From: Leptospiraceae bacterium
Lineage (GTDB): Bacteria; Spirochaetota; Leptospiria; Leptospirales; Leptonemataceae
Length of the DNA: 42,848 nt
Reading direction: 5' to 3'
NCBI GenBank assembly: GCA_020440915.1
Contig: JAGRNE010000002.1
Span: forward strand, 1 to 42,848
The translations under genes and the position numbers were made by a program. This document shows, piece after piece, positions 4,957-18,411 of this stretch. A model generated the notes under the pieces. It was not told where the DNA came from and made no database searches. It saw nothing but the letters and a program-made list of their open reading frames with translations. Each line of letters opens with the position of its first letter. Positions within the stretch are counted from its first letter, which is position 1.

Positions 4957-5018
4957 GGATTGTCTCCTTTTCACGGCTTCGAAGTTAAATTTCGAAGACA
5001 GTCTTCGATACGAAGCCT

Positions 5019-5556: not shown

Positions 5557-5597
5557 ATAGTAGCAGATCCAAAGGTAGGGGCCTTGATCAGGATCAA
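5557..5597 (-). promoter_or_regulatory. FNR/DNR-activated promoter of the DUF2946-like/barrel/cytochrome genes
   Basis: TTGATCAGGATCAA at 5584-5597 is a perfect half-site pair. On the minus strand a 21-nt gap leads to the -10 hexamer TACTAT (5557-5562), consistent with class II activation. No equivalent -10 is present on the plus strand at that distance, so the box points leftward to the genes at 5480-2665. Confidence 0.8.
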
Positions 5598-5657
5598 TTT
5601 AGAATGATGTTTTCCGCCTTCTTTCCAACGCGAACCTCACAGAAAAAACCTCTGGTC

Positions 5658-5699
5658 TTGATCTGAAGCAAGGGCAGAAAACCGTCAGACCCCTACCAT
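5658..5699 (+). promoter_or_regulatory. FNR/DNR-type promoter of norE-norF
   Basis: TTGATCTGAAGCAA at 5658-5671 departs from the consensus at one position. On the plus strand 22 nt separate it from the -10 hexamer TACCAT at 5694-5699. The predicted start near 5706 gives a leader of about 130 nt before norE. The identical spacing to the other boxes is the main reason to accept it despite the mismatch. Confidence 0.65.
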
Positions 5700-5835
5700 G
5701 AAGCAAGGAACAGGTGCCCCCAACGTTACCGGGGAAACATGGTTGCGTAGTTCCAACAGATCACTTACAATACAGGTATTGCATTAGAACGCAAAAAGGC
5801 CGGTAAGCCCTGCAGAAAGCATTGGAGAGATTATC

Positions 5836-6441
5836 ATGGATTACTATTTGAAAGAGTCAGAAAGAGAGCCTTTGCTTTATCCTCCCGGTGGTATACTCAT
5901 ATGGATGGTGCTTTCGCTGGAATTACTGACGTTCATTCCGGCCCTCATCGCCTTCTTCTACTACAGGCAGGCGGCCCCGGACAGCTTTGCGCAGTCTGCT
6001 TCGCAATTGAATCTGGAAATCGCCACCATCAATACTGCCCTGCTCATCGTCGGCGGATGGTTTGTGGCGCGGGCTTTGCACGCTCTTCGTCAGCGGCAAA
6101 ACCTCCAGGCCCGATCCTTTCTGGGAGGAGGGCTGCTTTCTGGACTGCTCTTTCTTGCCCTGAAGGGTTACGAGTACGCCCACAAGTACTCGCAGGGTCT
6201 GGACCTGGCCTACAACGATTTCTTCACGATGTACTGGCTCATTACCGGGTTCCACTTTCTGCACGTTGTGGTGGCGGCTTTGCTATTGATCGTGGCGATG
6301 CGGGGAATCGCCAGAGGACGGTACAATGCGACAAATTCCGAGGATGTGGAAACCATAGGTGTTTTCTGGCATATGTGCGATCTCATCTGGATTCTGGTTT
6401 TTCCCTCACTTTACATCTTTCCTCTGGGAGGTATGCAATGA
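5836..6441 (+). CDS. norE: NorE-like cytochrome c oxidase subunit III family protein
   Basis: 201 residues with five predicted membrane segments. The sequence fits the heme-copper oxidase subunit III superfamily in its short NorE form: a Pro-Gly-Gly near the first helix, 'GYEYAHKYSQGL' and 'TMYWLITGFHFLHVVVAALLL', ending 'IGVFWHMCDLIWILVFPSLYI'. NorE is not catalytic; in denitrifiers it supports nitric oxide reductase activity or assembly. Its stop overlaps the start of the next gene in ATGA. It is separated from the leftward genes by an intergenic region with two FNR boxes. No norB or norC lies in this window, so the reductase it would serve is elsewhere or is the oxidase-like protein at 7003-8328. 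Confidence 0.85.
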   Translation: MDYYLKESEREPLLYPPGGILIWMVLSLELLTFIPALIAFFYYRQAAPDSFAQSASQLNLEIATINTALLIVGGWFVARALHALRQRQNLQARSFLGGGLLSGLLFLALKGYEYAHKYSQGLDLAYNDFFTMYWLITGFHFLHVVVAALLLIVAMRGIARGRYNATNSEDVETIGVFWHMCDLIWILVFPSLYIFPLGGMQ

Positions 6442-7006: not shown

Positions 7007-8328
7007 ACATGGCTCCTGATGGCAGTGGAAATAGTCCAGAGGAAGTGGAATGCATTCAGAATGGCGCTTACGAGAAAAAGCAGCAAGCCGGGATAAAGAA
7101 GCGGGCTGGCCAGAAGACCGGCAGCAAGGAACAGGATGGACGGCGGATACGTCCAGAGCAGGATCTTCGACAGGATGCCCGGCGCCATATCCCTGGGAAG
7201 TAAGGTCGATGCCGCTGACCTGGAGGATACCCGGGATTTCGCTGACCGGGCGGGACCCGAGGACTGCTCGGGAACCGATGTAGCAGAATCCATTCGGGTC
7301 TGAAGGGCCATCCAGCTCATAAAGGGCAGCACCTTGAGTGACATACCCATGGTGGCCCCTCCCACGAAACCAGGCAACATCAGCAGAACAAGCGCTGTAT
7401 CCCATCTGTGGGATGGGCTGAAAAGCTTTCCCTCCAGACCCACCGATTCCGCTGCAGCCAGCGCCCAGGCCAGAACAGGAAAGAGAAAGGAAAGCAGAAA
7501 CATCGTCATTCCAGACTCAAGGCGCTTTCGCATTCTGTGGCGAAAGCACTGAAGAAGAAATGCCAGAAAAAGCCCCAGGGCCAGTCCGCCCACAATAAGT
7601 ACAGGAAATTGCGAAAGCGACCCTGGCAACGCTCTACCGGCAAACAGTGCCACCGGACAAAGGCCAAGGAGCAGGGCAGATACATGGGCCAGGGATTCCC
7701 GAAGATTATGGCTGAGCAGAAACATGGGTAGCAACTGGCTGCCCAGCGCTACAATCATAAGAGAAAACCAGGCAAGAATGCCGGTCCATGCATGCCAGTG
7801 CAAGAGCTGCAGAGGCAAAAACCAGGTCTGACCTCCCCATGCCATCAGACTTCCAGAAAGGGCCATAATCAAAAGCCAGCCCAGCGCTGCCATTACCTGC
7901 AACGCCCGGGCATTCCAGTGTCCCCGTCGTATTGTGAAGGCCACCAGAACAATGAGACCGGATATGGCCAGAACCAGCAGCCCGGCAAACCATACCAGCC
8001 AGCCAGGTTTCTGCCAACGGCAGATCAGGAAGCCTCCGGCCCCCAACCACCAGAGAATGGAAAGGATCCAGCCACCCGGACGGCTGGCCAGGGTGCCTCC
8101 CACCACAACGGGCAATAGCTGAAACAGAACGGCCAGGATACATGGACTGATTGTTAACAGAGTGAAAGTATGCACCAGAAGAATGGCAACACTGCTGTAA
8201 TAGTGATCGGAAAGGACGTTCGTATTCAGTAAGAGGCCAACCGCTGCGGCCAGCCAGCCTGCGCTGCTCAGTCCAAAGTTCGCCGCGAACACTCCGAAAT
8301 GGATTTCCCGGGGCTGTGATTGTATCAT
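7003..8328 (-). CDS. Polytopic membrane protein, heme-copper oxidase subunit I/NnrS-like
   Basis: 441 residues with about 12 hydrophobic helices. Histidines occur in oxidase-like places: 'SVAILLVHTFTLLTISPCILAVLFQLLPVVVG' early on and 'LLHWHAWTGILAWFSLMIVALGSQLLPMFLLSH' in the middle, resembling the single-subunit oxidase-like proteins found with DUF2249 genes in denitrifiers, and more loosely NnrS. The catalytic HPEVY and HH motifs of NorB/CcoN are not evident, so nitric oxide reductase activity cannot be claimed. Start and stop both overlap neighbours in ATGA, fixing it in the operon. A Ser/Arg-rich stretch (about 350-375) interrupts the helices near the C-terminus. A heme-binding protein in nitric oxide tolerance is the best guess. 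Confidence 0.7.
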   Translation of the reverse strand: MIQSQPREIHFGVFAANFGLSSAGWLAAAVGLLLNTNVLSDHYYSSVAILLVHTFTLLTISPCILAVLFQLLPVVVGGTLASRPGGWILSILWWLGAGGFLICRWQKPGWLVWFAGLLVLAISGLIVLVAFTIRRGHWNARALQVMAALGWLLIMALSGSLMAWGGQTWFLPLQLLHWHAWTGILAWFSLMIVALGSQLLPMFLLSHNLRESLAHVSALLLGLCPVALFAGRALPGSLSQFPVLIVGGLALGLFLAFLLQCFRHRMRKRLESGMTMFLLSFLFPVLAWALAAAESVGLEGKLFSPSHRWDTALVLLMLPGFVGGATMGMSLKVLPFMSWMALQTRMDSATSVPEQSSGPARSAKSRVSSRSAASTLLPRDMAPGILSKILLWTYPPSILFLAAGLLASPLLYPGLLLFLVSAILNAFHFLWTISTAIRSHV

Positions 8329-9356
8329 CGTTGCCGACCTATGAGAATTCGCACGTCTTGCGGACCTCGCTCGGAGATCCTGTAGCTGTAGCCTGCCTCC
8401 ACAAGCTGTGGCAAAAGGAAACGAGGCATTCTGTCATGGAATACATACAGAACCTGCTCTGGCTTCATTTGTTCAAGACATCCCATGATGCGGATCATGG
8501 GCCCCGGAGGCCTGCCTCCACGCACATCCATGCGAATAACGACAGACTTCGAAAGAGAAACCTCCATCGCCATTGGTTCCATTCCTTGATTGTCGGCGGA
8601 TGAAACAGGCTCGGCAAAGGCCTGCCGCGAATCTTCCGCTCGGTTTCCGGAAGGCCGGGCGGAAGGTCGATCTGTAAAACGCGAAGGCGCAGCGGAGGCA
8701 AATGATTGAAGAGAATTCACAAATCGCGCCTCATAGTGTCCATCCACGGATACGATATAGCCAGTGAGTCCCTTATGGGCAAGCAGGGGCAAAAGCGGCT
8801 CCGGGGGAAAAGAGTTCACTATACAGAGCCCCTCACCGGGTGCGATTCGCCCAACAACATCCAGAATGGCCGAAAGCGGCTCCTGACCTCTTTCCATCAT
8901 GGGTCTTACATCCAGGAAGGTAATTCGCTCTGACGGAAGGCCAGCGTAGATATCTCTGGCGGCGGCTGCGCCAGGATTCTCGGACAGAATCTCGTCCTCC
9001 ACTCCGTACCCCCCGGCCCCCGGGCCCCCGTCGCCCGGCCAACCGGTCCCTGCTGGTCCACTCCTGCCGCCTGCCCGGGGTTGCTCCGATGCAGGATCAC
9101 GGCCTTCCCCATGCGTCCGGGAATCGGGTAGCTTCACAGGCAGACCGAGCTTCTGTAGCGCCAGAAGGATCTGCTCCTCGCCAAGACCTGCGATTCGCGC
9201 TGCCATGGCAACGGTTACCTGCCCGGCCATAACTCTTCGCAGAACAGGATTTCTGAGCTTCTTGAATCGCGGGCTGAGAGCGATGAGCGTCTCGATGACG
9301 CGACCATCGGCTGCGATAATTGTGGCGATTCGCGTCTGCCGATGAATGGGTTTCAT
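8325..9356 (-). CDS. DUF1858 plus two DUF2249 domains
   Basis: 343 residues from the ATG 2 nt after the upstream stop; earlier in-frame codons shadow the preceding gene. Residues about 10-75 form a DUF1858-like helical domain ('VIETLIALSPRFKKLRNPVLRRVMAGQVTVAMAARIAGL'). A Gly/Pro-rich linker (about 92-118) follows, then two DUF2249 copies near 146-215 ('FLDVRPMMERGQEPLSAILDVVGRIAPGEGLCIVNSF') and 265-340 ('VVIRMDVRGGRPPGPMIRIMGCLEQMKPEQVLYVFHD'). DUF2249 is related to the TusA-like fold, and its function in denitrifiers is poorly known. The operon setting with a Fe-S factor and an oxidase-like protein suggests a nitric oxide or metal-centre role. Confidence 0.8.
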   Translation of the reverse strand: MKPIHRQTRIATIIAADGRVIETLIALSPRFKKLRNPVLRRVMAGQVTVAMAARIAGLGEEQILLALQKLGLPVKLPDSRTHGEGRDPASEQPRAGGRSGPAGTGWPGDGGPGAGGYGVEDEILSENPGAAAARDIYAGLPSERITFLDVRPMMERGQEPLSAILDVVGRIAPGEGLCIVNSFPPEPLLPLLAHKGLTGYIVSVDGHYEARFVNSLQSFASAAPSRFTDRPSARPSGNRAEDSRQAFAEPVSSADNQGMEPMAMEVSLSKSVVIRMDVRGGRPPGPMIRIMGCLEQMKPEQVLYVFHDRMPRFLLPQLVEAGYSYRISERGPQDVRILIGRQR

Positions 9357-9357
9357 A

Positions 9358-9630
9358 TCAACTGCAACATCCGCCGCCGGCATCCAGCAATCCATCGCCG
9401 GTACGGGTAATGCGAACTCGAAATACTTCGGGTCCCTGCTGCTCATATTCCCAGCGAAAGGCTCCCGGCAGGGCAGCCTCCATTTGAAAATACAGCGGTC
9501 GCGGGTCATGATCATTATGAATGATAAAACTCTGACCTATGTCCAGTTCGTTGAATCGCCCAAATATTGTGGGGTGCTTTTGCCTGGGCTCCAGCACCGT
9601 AACGTCCAGAATGTCTCCTTTGCTTTGCAT
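9358..9630 (-). CDS. Single-domain DUF2249 protein
   Basis: 90 residues from the ATG at 9630, chosen because AGGAG sits 5 nt upstream; an in-frame ATG at 9657 would place that site inside the gene. It is a complete DUF2249 domain: 'LDVTVLEPRQKHPTIFGRFNELDIGQSFIIHNDHDPRPLYFQMEAALPGAFRWEYEQQGPEVFRVRI', with the NDHDP-PLYFQ core, and a cysteine pair at the very end (GGGCCS). The same protein is common beside hemerythrin and nor/nos genes. It is the first gene after a bidirectional FNR-box promoter. Confidence 0.88.
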   Translation of the reverse strand: MQSKGDILDVTVLEPRQKHPTIFGRFNELDIGQSFIIHNDHDPRPLYFQMEAALPGAFRWEYEQQGPEVFRVRITRTGDGLLDAGGGCCS

Positions 9631-9743
9631 TTTTTCTCCTGAATTTTTGCCGAGCATCGATCCGACCTCCCGGCAGGGATTTTCGATGCGAGCAATCCAG
9701 CCGCTTTGTTGAGCGGGACTCTGTGCATCGAAGATATGCGATC

Positions 9744-9814
9744 AGTATAGGTCCTGCTACAGACCAGGGCCTTGATTCAGATCAAGGATATCTATGAATA
9801 TTCCATGCTACGTT
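9744..9814. promoter_or_regulatory. Bidirectional FNR/DNR-activated promoter
   Basis: One palindrome, TTGATTCAGATCAA at 9772-9785, has -10 hexamers on both sides. Leftward, 22 nt lead to TATACT (9744-9749) for the DUF2249 operon. Rightward, 23 nt lead to TACGTT (9809-9814), preceded by TG one base upstream as in an extended -10, for the hemerythrin gene. One bound regulator dimer could therefore switch on both units. Confidence 0.8.
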
Positions 9815-9862: not shown

Positions 9863-10336
9863 ATGCACGAAGAGCGATTCAGACTCCAGGAGGAAGGCGA
9901 ACAGTGTGATATCCCAACTCTGCTGCATCTACTTACAGCCGATCATGAATACTTTCTGCAAGCGGCCATACCTGAACTGGAGAAATGGGCCCTGAAACGT
10001 TCCAATGGACCATTGAGACAGTTCCTGCAGAATCTGCATGACGAGCTTCTCATCCATTTCAGAATGGAGGAACGTCTGGTTTTTCCCGTTATTTTGTCTT
10101 CTCTGGATGGGGCCGGGGCCATGGCCGCTGCGCTGCGCCTGGCCTGTGATCATATGCGCGACGATCACCGTAGTCATCTGAGGCATATTCTGGTTCTGCA
10201 GGAATTTCAAAGAACCGGTAAGCAGGGCGGCAAGCTGGAAGAAATGCTTGAAGAATTCTGCAGCAGTATGCGCTTTCACGCCGACCTGGAGAATAGACGC
10301 CTCTTCCAGAACTGGGCCATGCTGCAGGACTATTAA
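9863..10336 (+). CDS. Hemerythrin HHE-domain protein, Ric/YtfE-like
   Basis: 157 residues forming a four-helix bundle with the expected di-iron ligands: His28 in 'TADHEYF', His59 and His65 with Glu69/70 in 'LHDELLIHFRMEERLVFP', 'DHMRDDHRSHL', and a C-terminal 'FHADLENRRLF'. The ScdA N-terminal DUF542 domain is absent. Proteins of this class bind oxygen or nitric oxide or repair nitrosylated Fe-S clusters. Transcription from the shared FNR-box promoter, opposite the DUF2249/Fe-S operon, supports a role in nitric oxide stress during denitrification. The gene converges with the predicted small RNA, whose terminator starts at its stop codon. Confidence 0.85.
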   Translation: MHEERFRLQEEGEQCDIPTLLHLLTADHEYFLQAAIPELEKWALKRSNGPLRQFLQNLHDELLIHFRMEERLVFPVILSSLDGAGAMAAALRLACDHMRDDHRSHLRHILVLQEFQRTGKQGGKLEEMLEEFCSSMRFHADLENRRLFQNWAMLQDY

Positions 10337-10360
10337 AAAAAAGCCGGGACGGACCCGGCT
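10335..10360 (-). terminator. Intrinsic terminator of the predicted small RNA (and possibly of the dnr gene)
   Basis: On the minus strand a perfect 7-bp stem AGCCGGG/CCCGGCT with a 5-nt loop (10342-10360) is followed at once by eight T (10335-10342). The T run is on the minus-strand side only, so it stops leftward transcription and not the hemerythrin gene, whose stop codon it overlaps. Confidence 0.88.
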
Positions 10361-10455
10361 CGGATTCCCGATGCGGATTAGCTGACTCACAGGACCATTT
10401 CTGAGAAGGGATCGATCAGTAAGGCCTCTGCATGGACTGTAATCCTGTAGAGCTG
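10335..10455 (-). ncRNA. Predicted FNR/DNR-activated small RNA, about 120 nt
   Basis: A complete transcription unit without a gene lies between two converging genes. A perfect FNR box (10491-10504) is followed after 23 nt by TATAAA (10462-10467), predicting a start near 10455; a strong terminator ends the transcript at about 10335. The only ATG frames inside are about five codons or fewer, so it is probably non-coding. A pyrimidine-rich segment (CCCTTCTC, around 10403-10410) lies between potential stems and could pair with purine-rich ribosome binding sites. In design it parallels FNR-induced FnrS of enterobacteria (also about 120 nt), but no sequence relationship is claimed. An alternative is that part of this is the dnr 3' leader. 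Confidence 0.65.
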
Positions 10456-10461
10456 TATTTG

Positions 10462-10504
10462 TTTATACCACAAGGGGCTGCAGACGAGCCTTGATCTCGA
10501 TCAA
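10462..10504 (-). promoter_or_regulatory. FNR/DNR-activated promoter with no downstream protein gene
   Basis: TTGATCTCGATCAA at 10491-10504 is a perfect box located 8 nt beyond the stop of the regulator gene. The -10 TATAAA at 10462-10467 is the best of all the -10 hexamers in the island, at 23 nt from the box. No matching -10 exists rightward. It points into a 150-bp gap that ends at a terminator. Confidence 0.82.
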
Positions 10505-10512
10505 GGATTCCT

Positions 10513-11142
10513 TTATTCTTCAGAAACTTCGGGAAGCAATCGAACGTAGCCTTCGGATTCCGAGACCCTTCCCTGCTTCTTCAACGTGCTGAAGGCCCGA
10601 CTGAAAGCCTCCGGCGAAACACCCAGATACAGAGCGACCTGATTCTTGGGAATATTTAAATAGACTTCGCGCTCCGCGGCACCCAGAGCTTCCAGAAAAA
10701 ACAGGACGCGCTCTTCCGTTGTATGCAGCATGAGTAACGTTGTCTTATCCTTGAAAAACTCGGCATTAGAAACGAAATCCTCCTGAAAACACTGTTTGAG
10801 TTCCGGATACTCCGCCATCATGGAAATACATTCGTTCACAGGAATAAAGATTACGGAACCATCGCGAACTGCTTCACAGGAAGCGGGATAGACCGGTATG
10901 TTTTTTAGGATTGGTAGCGCTGCAATAATGCTACCTGGAAAAAAGAAATTCAAAATGGCTTCTTTGCCGGCTTCATTTAGCTGGTAGATCTTGAATATTC
11001 CCCTTTCAATGACGTAAGGCCCCTTGAAGGAATCCCCCTGGAGAAAAACGGTATCGCCGGCCCGGAACTTGATTTGCCGCGACAGCTTCTCCAGTTTTCC
11101 GCGGCAAGGCTCGGGCACTCTATTCCAAAATTCCCTGGACAC
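10513..11142 (-). CDS. Crp/FNR-family nitrogen-oxide regulator, Dnr/Nnr-like
   Basis: 209 residues with a GTG start and no strong ribosome binding site. Residues about 20-115 form the cNMP-type sensor fold ('AGDTVFLQGDSFKGPYVIERGIFKIYQLNEAGKEAILNFFFPGSIIAA'), then a dimer helix and a winged helix 'NIPKNQVALYLGVSPEAFSRAFSTLKKQGRV'. The recognition helix has E-x-x-S-R (Glu178, Ser181, Arg182), the signature that reads TTGAT half-sites. The N-terminal Cys cluster of oxygen-sensing FNR is missing, so it fits the Dnr/NnrR class that responds to nitric oxide, probably through heme. It lies 95 bp after the nos-operon thioredoxin on the same strand and probably controls the six boxes listed here. Confidence 0.88.
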   Translation of the reverse strand: MSREFWNRVPEPCRGKLEKLSRQIKFRAGDTVFLQGDSFKGPYVIERGIFKIYQLNEAGKEAILNFFFPGSIIAALPILKNIPVYPASCEAVRDGSVIFIPVNECISMMAEYPELKQCFQEDFVSNAEFFKDKTTLLMLHTTEERVLFFLEALGAAEREVYLNIPKNQVALYLGVSPEAFSRAFSTLKKQGRVSESEGYVRLLPEVSEE

Positions 11143-15965: not shown

Positions 15966-17906
15966 TCAAGGGCTCACCCGAATATACTGTTGCATCTCCT
16001 GATGCAGTGCCGAACAGAAGTCGGTGCAATAGAAGGGATACACTCCCGGTCTATTCGCTTCGAAGATTACTGTTTTCGTCTGGCCTGGCATAACCAGTAT
16101 GTTGGGAAGATTCGCTCCATAGACTGCGAAGCCATGGGGAATGTCGAAGTCCTGCTCTATGTTGGTTACATGGAAGTAGACTTTGTCCCCCACCCGCGCT
16201 TCCACAATGTCAGGCTTGAAGTGAGAGCGAATGGCTGTCATGTACACATGCAGTTCCTTGCCATTTCTTTCCACTCTTGCCTTGTTTTCGGACTTTGTGA
16301 CCCTGGGGTGGTTGTTTTCTTCCAGGCGAAAGAATCTGGCAGACTTATCCTTGATCCGATCCGCCGGAATCGCCTGCGCATAATGGGGCTCGCCCATGGT
16401 GGGGAAGTCCAGAAGCATCTCCACTTTGTCGCCACTGATGTCATAGAGTTGCGCGGAGTGAGCCATTTCCATCCCCACGGGAAGATACCGGTCTTTGGTA
16501 ATCTTGTTCAAGGATACCATGTACTTCCCATACGGATTGGCCGAGTCGCCACCAACAATGCTCAGATGGCCGATGTTATAGTAGGCCGGAATATCCTGAA
16601 CGGGCTCCCAGGTTCCGAGTTCCCATTTCAGAATCTGGTTATTCAGAAAGCAGGAAGTGTAGGCAAAGCCTTTTCCATCGAACTCGGTATGCAACGGACC
16701 CATGCAATGCTTGGATTTTACAACCTCTACTTCTCCGGCGATGGTCGCTTCGTATTTCAGAACCGGGATGTCGAAGATCGTAGTCTCCACGGCACTCTTA
16801 TCCGAAGTGGCCTTGAGAAACTTTTCAAAGGAGTGCACCGGAATAACGGTGGCCAGTTTTCCCCCGGCCACAATGTACTTTCCGTCCGGAGAGATATCCA
16901 CTCCATGGGGACTCTTGGGAGTAGGCAGATAGAACAGAGTGTCCGGGCAATCCTTTGGATGGAGCAACCTCACTCCATTTTCCCGAACCGAGACAGCAGG
17001 CATGTTCTCTTCGTGGTAGTTATGCCTGTATTCGCCGGTAAATGGCTTTGCCTTCCCTTCGGCCACACATTTCTTCGCCTTCACCCAGTTAACGGCAAGG
17101 ATGTAATCCTTATCATTCTTCGAAGCTTCCACCTCGATCATCTTGTAGGCCTGTTCGGTGTTGTAAGAAGTGAAGAAACACCAGTCATGGGAAGGCCCTT
17201 TTCCACAATGCGAAAGGTCATAGTCAAAGCCCGGCACCAGGATCTGAAAATCCAGGCTCATTTTCTTGTTCGATTCGGTATCTCCATTCACCTTGATGAA
17301 AGAGAGAGTTCCGTTGAACTTGCCGTCGCCGTAGCTTTCCACCGGCAGGGGTCGCTGAGGAATGGGTACACTGAAGCGAGTGGCCGCCATAATGTACTCG
17401 GTGTTCTCGGTCAGAAATGGGGAAGCGTGGTTACCCGCGCTGTTCGGAATCTCGATGATTTCCACGGTTTCGAATGTGGAAAGATCGATACGAGCAATGC
17501 GAGGAGTATTGTTCCCATTAATGAAAATCCAGCGGCCATCGTCCTCCCCGTCGGTCTTGGAGAGCTCGGGATGGTGAGCATCGTCCCAGGGAAGATGCCC
17601 TTGCGATGTCATTAGCATTGCTTTCGTTTCCTCTTCGAAGCCATAGCCGTTTTCGGGAAAAACCGAAAACACCGGTATGGTCTTGAGAAGTCTGCCGGAA
17701 GGAATGCCGTGCACCGTCATCTGTCCGCTGAATCCGCCGGACATGAACCAGTAGATCTCATCATGCTCCCCGGGAGGAACATATACCTTTTCTGCCGCAT
17801 CGCTGGCCAGGATTCCCCCGGAGCCTGCATCGCCGCAGCCTGTTACCAGAGTGGAGAGACCGACAAGCAAAGCTAACAGTCCTCCCGTAATTGTTCTAGT
17901 TTTCAT
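15966..17906 (-). CDS. nosZ: Clade II nitrous oxide reductase, predicted lipoprotein
   Basis: 646 residues from the ATG with GGAGG 8 nt upstream; an in-frame extension to 18011 overlaps the cytochrome gene. Reduces N2O to N2. There is no twin-arginine signal; instead a Sec lipoprotein signal with LVTGC (Cys24). The N-terminal beta-propeller carries CuZ histidines in DDAHHP (His111, His112), SPHGVD, GPLHTEF and EPHYAQ. The C-terminal cupredoxin has the CuA site CTDFCSALHQEM with Cys627, Cys631, His635 and Met638. The Sec signal and the DxHH form are clade II marks. The predicted lipid anchor would hold the enzyme at the membrane near the cytochrome lipoprotein encoded 55 bp upstream. Confidence 0.97.
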   Translation of the reverse strand: MKTRTITGGLLALLVGLSTLVTGCGDAGSGGILASDAAEKVYVPPGEHDEIYWFMSGGFSGQMTVHGIPSGRLLKTIPVFSVFPENGYGFEEETKAMLMTSQGHLPWDDAHHPELSKTDGEDDGRWIFINGNNTPRIARIDLSTFETVEIIEIPNSAGNHASPFLTENTEYIMAATRFSVPIPQRPLPVESYGDGKFNGTLSFIKVNGDTESNKKMSLDFQILVPGFDYDLSHCGKGPSHDWCFFTSYNTEQAYKMIEVEASKNDKDYILAVNWVKAKKCVAEGKAKPFTGEYRHNYHEENMPAVSVRENGVRLLHPKDCPDTLFYLPTPKSPHGVDISPDGKYIVAGGKLATVIPVHSFEKFLKATSDKSAVETTIFDIPVLKYEATIAGEVEVVKSKHCMGPLHTEFDGKGFAYTSCFLNNQILKWELGTWEPVQDIPAYYNIGHLSIVGGDSANPYGKYMVSLNKITKDRYLPVGMEMAHSAQLYDISGDKVEMLLDFPTMGEPHYAQAIPADRIKDKSARFFRLEENNHPRVTKSENKARVERNGKELHVYMTAIRSHFKPDIVEARVGDKVYFHVTNIEQDFDIPHGFAVYGANLPNILVMPGQTKTVIFEANRPGVYPFYCTDFCSALHQEMQQYIRVSP

Positions 17907-17961
17907 CCTTTTTGCCTCCGTTTTGCAGGCGGTTCGCTCGCCTGAAGCCTCCAAACTCGCA

Positions 17962-18411
17962 CTATTTCTTTGCCTGTTTTCGCAGGTACTCCAGGACTGC
18001 CCTGGCCTCATCCTGACTGAGGTTCTGATTGGCCATAGGAGTCATATAGGTAGCATAGAGCTCCTCGGCGATGGGGTCCTTGTTGATCATCTCTTCTGGA
18101 TTCAGGATCATGTTCATGATCCATTCCGGGGAACGCCTGGTGGTTACTTCGCCCAGGGCAGGGCCCACGTGCCGCTCATCCATCTTGTGGCAGGAAGAAC
18201 ATTTGATTTCAAAAATCTGTGCCCCTTTCTGCGCCAGAGCAGGATCGATGTCCGTCAGCTCCAATGCCGTTACGGGACCAATGCCTTTGTTCTGCATTGG
18301 GTCCTGCGTCGATTCCTCTGCCTGATTGTCTTCTTCCGCTGCCTTTCTGCAGGCCGGAAAAACCAGGGATGCAACAAGTATCAAAACCGCTACGCCAATG
18401 ATATGTTTCAT
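17962..18411 (-). CDS. Monoheme cytochrome c lipoprotein, first gene of the nos operon
   Basis: 149 residues. Lipoprotein signal with Cys21 (LVFPAC), then an acidic linker, then a class I cytochrome c with CSSCH at 71-75, 'HVGPALGEVTTRRSPEWIMNMILNPEEM' and a probable axial Met123 or Met126 in TYMTPM. Such cytochromes (NosC-like) deliver electrons from the quinol pool to NosZ in clade II organisms. It has AGGTAAG upstream of ATG and is preceded by an FNR-box promoter, so it opens the nos transcript. Confidence 0.88.
   Translation of the reverse strand: MKHIIGVAVLILVASLVFPACRKAAEEDNQAEESTQDPMQNKGIGPVTALELTDIDPALAQKGAQIFEIKCSSCHKMDERHVGPALGEVTTRRSPEWIMNMILNPEEMINKDPIAEELYATYMTPMANQNLSQDEARAVLEYLRKQAKK

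Follow-up and report, generated by a model that had tools for sequence, protein, structure and literature searches.

A predicted FNR/DNR-switched small RNA gene in the denitrification island of uncultured marine Leptospira relatives

What does a perfect FNR box control when no protein gene stands behind it? A gap between two convergent genes in the denitrification island of an uncultured marine Leptospira relative raises this question, and we addressed it in a window of 42,848 nt (the whole stretch of DNA analysed) and in genomes of the same genus.

Promoter and terminator in the window and in sister genomes

A motif scan of the window identified a perfect FNR box, TTGATCTCGATCAA, at positions 10491-10504 (TTGATCGAGATCAA as the minus strand reads), followed 23 nt further along the minus strand by the -10 element TATAAA (10462-10467). 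The box is centred at about -42.5 from the predicted start. On the basis of this promoter geometry and of the terminator, a small RNA of ~120 nt is predicted on the minus strand at 10335-10455, with its 5' end near 10455 and its 3' end within a run of T. The intrinsic terminator (AGCCGGG-TCCGT-CCCGGCT, 10342-10360, minus strand) has a 7-bp G+C stem and a 5-nt loop, and its right arm continues into T8 (10342-10335). It was the first-listed terminator-like site between positions 5000 and 20000 when sites were sorted by pairs and G+C. The unit is placed between a hemerythrin-domain gene on the plus strand (9863-10336, stop 10334-10336), which has its own FNR box at 9772-9785, and dnr on the minus strand (10513-11142, stop 10513-10515), which encodes a Crp/FNR-family regulator, likely an activator, and is the upstream neighbour of the unit in the window only. 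The ~100-120 nt between the -10 element and the terminator contain no credible gene on the minus strand. A mechanical ORF of 153 codons (9929-10390, start at 10390) crosses the terminator, is antisense to the hemerythrin gene and was rejected. The sequence-only reading, made earlier on this DNA, had described the same box, -10 element, terminator with T8 and convergent gap; its coordinates and description proved correct, and its statement that no protein frame is present holds in substance, given the nature of the 153-codon ORF. The locus combines three features expected of Crp/FNR-activated sRNA genes, namely, a box near -41.5 with a matching -10 element, an intrinsic terminator and no conserved frame. 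Judging from the DNA itself, an FNR/DNR-switched short non-coding RNA gene very probably adjoins the denitrification genes of this organism.

A search with the dnr protein led to three marine MAGs, NP120 (G004), NP47 (G003) and SP332 (G001), which are labelled Spirochaetaceae/Leptospiraceae and belong to the same genus as the window genome (G000). Their norE is ~60% identical to that of the window. Box, spacing, -10 element and terminator recur in every genus genome with a contig covering the region (4/4); the fifth, G002, is outside this count, as its contig ends before the place. At the equivalent place in each of the three sister loci (contigs PBUB01000009, PBEB01000050 and PCBI01000018), a perfect box and a 22-nt spacing lead to a -10 element and a gene-free stretch of 100-150 nt, and then to a strong terminator. 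The unit runs from position 9774 onward in L062 (TATATG, ~150 nt, terminator GCCGGGGACCACCCGGCATTTTTTTT), from 11937 downward in L063 (TATCTA, ~140 nt, terminator GCCGGGCTAGCCCGGCTTTTTTTTT) and from 17776 downward in L064 (TATAAA, ~115 nt, terminator GGCCGGGGAATCCGGCCGCTTTTTT), and terminator tails across units are T6-T9. At the level of sequence, promoter elements and a terminator are present, no ORF is conserved and the unit is kept in four species.

The common gene order in the relatives is dnr, a box, norE, a small orf and the orphan unit, which faces a hemerythrin gene in opposite orientation, followed by a box and DUF2249; in G004, the hemerythrin gene is absent from the place downstream of the unit. 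In the window, norE is on the plus strand at 5836 and has a separate box (5658), while in the relatives it directly follows dnr. Since norE has moved away in the window, the unit there directly follows dnr. The unit is more than a dnr 3' UTR because it follows norE-orf in the three relatives and dnr in the window, and the predicted promoter is kept despite this swap of the upstream gene. Among the outcomes that the sequence-only reading had named as counting against it was the loss of box and -10, with nothing conserved beyond a dnr 3' UTR; the reverse was found, with both elements kept beside norE-orf. Other rearrangements were also seen in the island. In the window, norE and its box are relocated and inverted (5584-6441); norE lies between o7003 and o5019 there and in G002 (L097), and directly after dnr in the three sister genomes. 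A Rrf2/NsrR-like gene (NsrR model 3e-37, below the model cut-off) and a small lipoprotein-like gene, convergent with the unit, lie between it and the hemerythrin gene in two relatives (L062, 10074-11233; L063, 10233-11394) and are absent from that place in the window.

Beyond these four genomes, a search of 22 family genomes with the intergenic DNA gave no significant match outside the window, which is expected because divergence is high (norE ~60%). In a more distant norE locus (L098, G012), the gap after norE-orf is too small for a unit, and the unit was seen in one genus only. A Markov terminator test missed the terminators of the window and L064 because its slices and thresholds were too strict, and it is not evidence for them.

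The pattern is rare outside the island. The window contains five perfect FNR boxes, and seven with up to one mismatch against 1.8 expected (0/100 shuffles reached 7); no more than ten boxes occur across the entire 3.7-Mb draft. A strict pattern of box, 21-23 nt and TAT occurred 2, 3, 4 and 6 times in G000, G001, G003 and G004, respectively, and the reversed (backwards) control pattern 0 times. Island contigs (C222, C50, C9 and C18) held 14/15 of these matches, and both matches in G000 are inside the window, at the orphan unit and at the DUF2249 promoter. For 68 further directed boxes in the island loci, hexamers resembling a -10 element (TA plus at least 4/6) are most frequent at spacings of 21 nt (6 cases) and 22 nt (8 cases), against 0-3 at other spacings, and the spacing of the unit, 23 nt in the window and 22 nt in the relatives, fits this genus-wide peak. 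The DUF2249 genes of the window are two adjacent genes (8325-9657) with an FNR box ahead and a DUF1858-like stretch in the larger, and they are kept beside the hemerythrin gene in two relatives.

The RNA body and other explanations of the box

As no other terminator follows the upstream operon, the predicted transcript could also form the 3' end of a longer mRNA. One explanation is, therefore, a 3'-UTR-type sRNA with two sources, its own FNR/DNR promoter and the trimming of read-through mRNA. The terminator would be common to the unit and to dnr or norE-orf, and NarS, which maps to the narK 3' end in E. coli, provides a precedent (PMC8139620). This explanation differs from a stand-alone sRNA merely by the extra source, and we regard it as possible, if on the whole unlikely. 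It is less probable still that the unit is a mere 3' UTR and terminator of the upstream operon. The box would then be incidental or a relic, or would act as a roadblock, and would yield no RNA of its own. In none of the four genomes was a terminator seen between the upstream stop codon, which in the window is that of dnr, and the box, and the box begins within a few nt of the upstream stop codon in 3/4. However, neither a pure 3' UTR nor a relic would explain why four diverged genomes, with two different upstream genes, retain a perfect box and, 22-23 nt on, a -10 element, and conservation between L062 and L063 is highest past the predicted +1.

L062 and L063 are 97% identical in dnr and 81% in norE, and allow the body of the predicted RNA to be followed along its length. 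The spacer from box to -10 matches at 13/22 positions. A block directly behind the predicted +1 is fully shared (12/12), the two arms of a 13-bp helix agree at 20/26 positions and the inner loop at 22/49, and a 22-nt block before the terminator hairpin agrees at 21/22. All of the differing pairs in the helix (six/six) still pair, with no double changes, and slid helix controls pair in 40-50% of cells vs 100%, a comparison of two sequences only; retention of helix pairing under change is thus supportive, not conclusive. Both RNAs also fold better than shuffles (z of -3.7 and -3.1 for L062 and L063), and the window and L064 RNAs show no unusual folding against shuffles (z of -0.95 and -0.76). 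For the window, the fold includes a predicted hairpin with a pyrimidine-rich loop, CGATCCCTTC, at approximately 10401-10418 (minus strand), which is weak and species-specific. No alignable body was detected between the window and L064 RNAs and those of L062 and L063, and a covariance model built from the latter two (R1) recovered, across 22 family genomes, no sequence other than its two source RNAs. The homology of the four units rests on place, promoter and terminator because the window and L064 bodies share no alignable sequence. The lack of a shared RNA body is not surprising where norE itself is ~60% identical.

A protein-titrating RNA of the CsrA/RsmY type would explain such fast sequence change, and 3/4 RNAs have five GGA motifs, a number exceeding shuffles at the 3-7% level. 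Only 2 are present in the window RNA, which is at chance level and gives the idea no support there, and the conserved blocks of L062 and L063 fit base pairing better, making a CsrA sponge very unlikely. Even less probable is a very small protein under the control of the box. A start, ATGC[AG]GTCGCTACCTGCAAAGGAACTCGA, is common to L062 and L063, with a synonymous difference, but these frames have no ribosome-binding site ahead, cross the terminator and diverge after ~12 codons. No counterpart exists in the window or L064, and window frames past +1 are all tiny or cross the terminator; the missing ribosome site and the terminator read-through speak against the protein. A relict promoter of a deleted or moved gene, for example, the relocated norE of the window, has next to nothing to recommend it, since norE has a distinct box of its own (TTGATCTGAAGCAA or close) in the window and relatives, and relatives carry norE and the orphan unit together.

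Regulator, proposed mechanism and target searches

The dnr product carries the Pfam domains cNMP_binding and HTH_Crp_2 and an EAFSR recognition helix of the E-x-x-S-R form. Its cysteines are at 13, 89, 105 and 118, with no N-terminal cluster of the FNR type, and among solved structures DNR (3dkw) matched weakly. Because of this combination, we read the protein as a DNR/NnrR-type, putatively NO-responsive activator. Hfq is encoded in 5/5 genus genomes. Each of these (G000-G004) has two Hfq-family proteins, at ~103 and ~56 bits.

With a probability of roughly 0.7, we favour reading the unit as an sRNA gene in its own right. The sRNA would be activated by DNR/FNR, would probably be assisted by Hfq and would base-pair with mRNAs. 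Transcription, the identity of the activator, the dependence on Hfq and the action in trans are what we infer beyond the sequence elements. Under low oxygen and in the presence of nitrogen oxides, an activator of the Crp/FNR family, with the island-encoded DNR-type protein as the likeliest candidate, would bind the box at about -41.5/-42.5 and recruit RNA polymerase (class II activation). The resulting transcript, ~120 nt in the window genome and 115-150 nt in the sister species, would stop at the strong terminator and, probably with the help of Hfq, pair with mRNAs via short exposed segments. Candidate segments in the two closest relatives are the 5' block GCUCAUCAGUCA and, after the long hairpin, the 22-nt block GCUACCUGCAAAGGAACUCGAA. 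Class II activation of a trans-pairing short RNA is the most economical mechanism.

Searches for targets revealed no convincing candidate. The complements of the two conserved segments had no shared gene start in G001 and G003 among the loci examined; match counts in these genomes were like the reversed control for the 17-mer segment and above the control for the 14-mer. RNAduplex comparisons with island leaders (~24 tests) gave nothing convincing. The nosZ leader alone stood out (z of -2.7), with no contiguous seed of at least 8 under the filters used, and given the ~24 tests and the lack of a long seed, it was treated as chance. The sequence-only reading had also proposed that the pyrimidine-rich segment CCCTTCTC pairs with ribosome-binding sites. 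No such pairing stood out among the gene starts of the window, and the segment is largely inside a hairpin loop of the predicted fold. This idea is not supported, as leader pairing was not convincing and the segment is not conserved. Hence, the core of the earlier proposal, an FNR/DNR-activated sRNA in the denitrification island, gains considerable strength from the retention of the promoter and terminator unit in three relatives, and the CCCTTCTC pairing does not.

Comparison with known regulatory RNAs

In its available part, a review of nitrate respiration lists few denitrification sRNAs and none shown to be directly DNR/NnrR-activated (PMC8139620), and words starting with anaerob-, nitr- or Fnr are absent from a survey of Leptospira sRNAs (PMC13224635). 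The predicted unit is similar in part to several described RNAs. PaiI of Pseudomonas aeruginosa is likewise an anaerobic RNA (126 nt) tied to denitrification, but is reported to be NarXL-dependent with a NarL site, and not directly under an FNR/DNR box (PMC8139620, PMC5703892). DenR/sRNA-29 of Paracoccus denitrificans, set beside the unit by description, acts on denitrification genes and works via a GntR regulator (PMC6686037); its own regulator is not known according to the review (PMC8139620). RoxS/RsaE of Bacillus and Staphylococcus is an NO-induced base-pairing RNA, but its activator is a two-component system, ResDE or the homologue in Staphylococcus, and not a Crp/FNR protein (PMC8139620). 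NarS is FNR-controlled and ends at a terminator that it has in common with a nitrogen-oxide gene (PMC8139620), whereas the unit has a clear promoter of its own and an exchangeable upstream gene (dnr or norE-orf).

The window genome carries nirK (1234-2607, a copper nitrite reductase with a fused cytochrome c domain at its C terminus) and nosZ (15966-18011, Sec-dependent type, TIGR04246, with nosD/F/Y-like genes), and can therefore affect N2O; no nosZ match was found in the island segments retrieved from the three relatives. We tentatively suggest, at somewhat less than even odds, that a denitrification regulon in Spirochaetota has a post-transcriptional arm, an sRNA directly activated by an NO-responsive DNR-type regulator. 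Its promoter and terminator would be kept while the body is rewritten between species, as in a fast-evolving regulatory slot.

The nearest parallel is FnrS of enterobacteria, with which the unit shares a non-coding RNA of ~120 nt, an FNR-box promoter, a terminator, the availability of Hfq and an anaerobic logic. The likeness noted in the sequence-only reading does not extend to family membership: no Rfam covariance model, FnrS included, came near its gathering score, and, unlike FnrS, the unit belongs to a denitrification island of Leptospira relatives and adjoins a DNR-type gene. If confirmed, it would extend an FnrS-like logic to marine relatives of Leptospira, at a concrete locus with two conserved candidate pairing segments.
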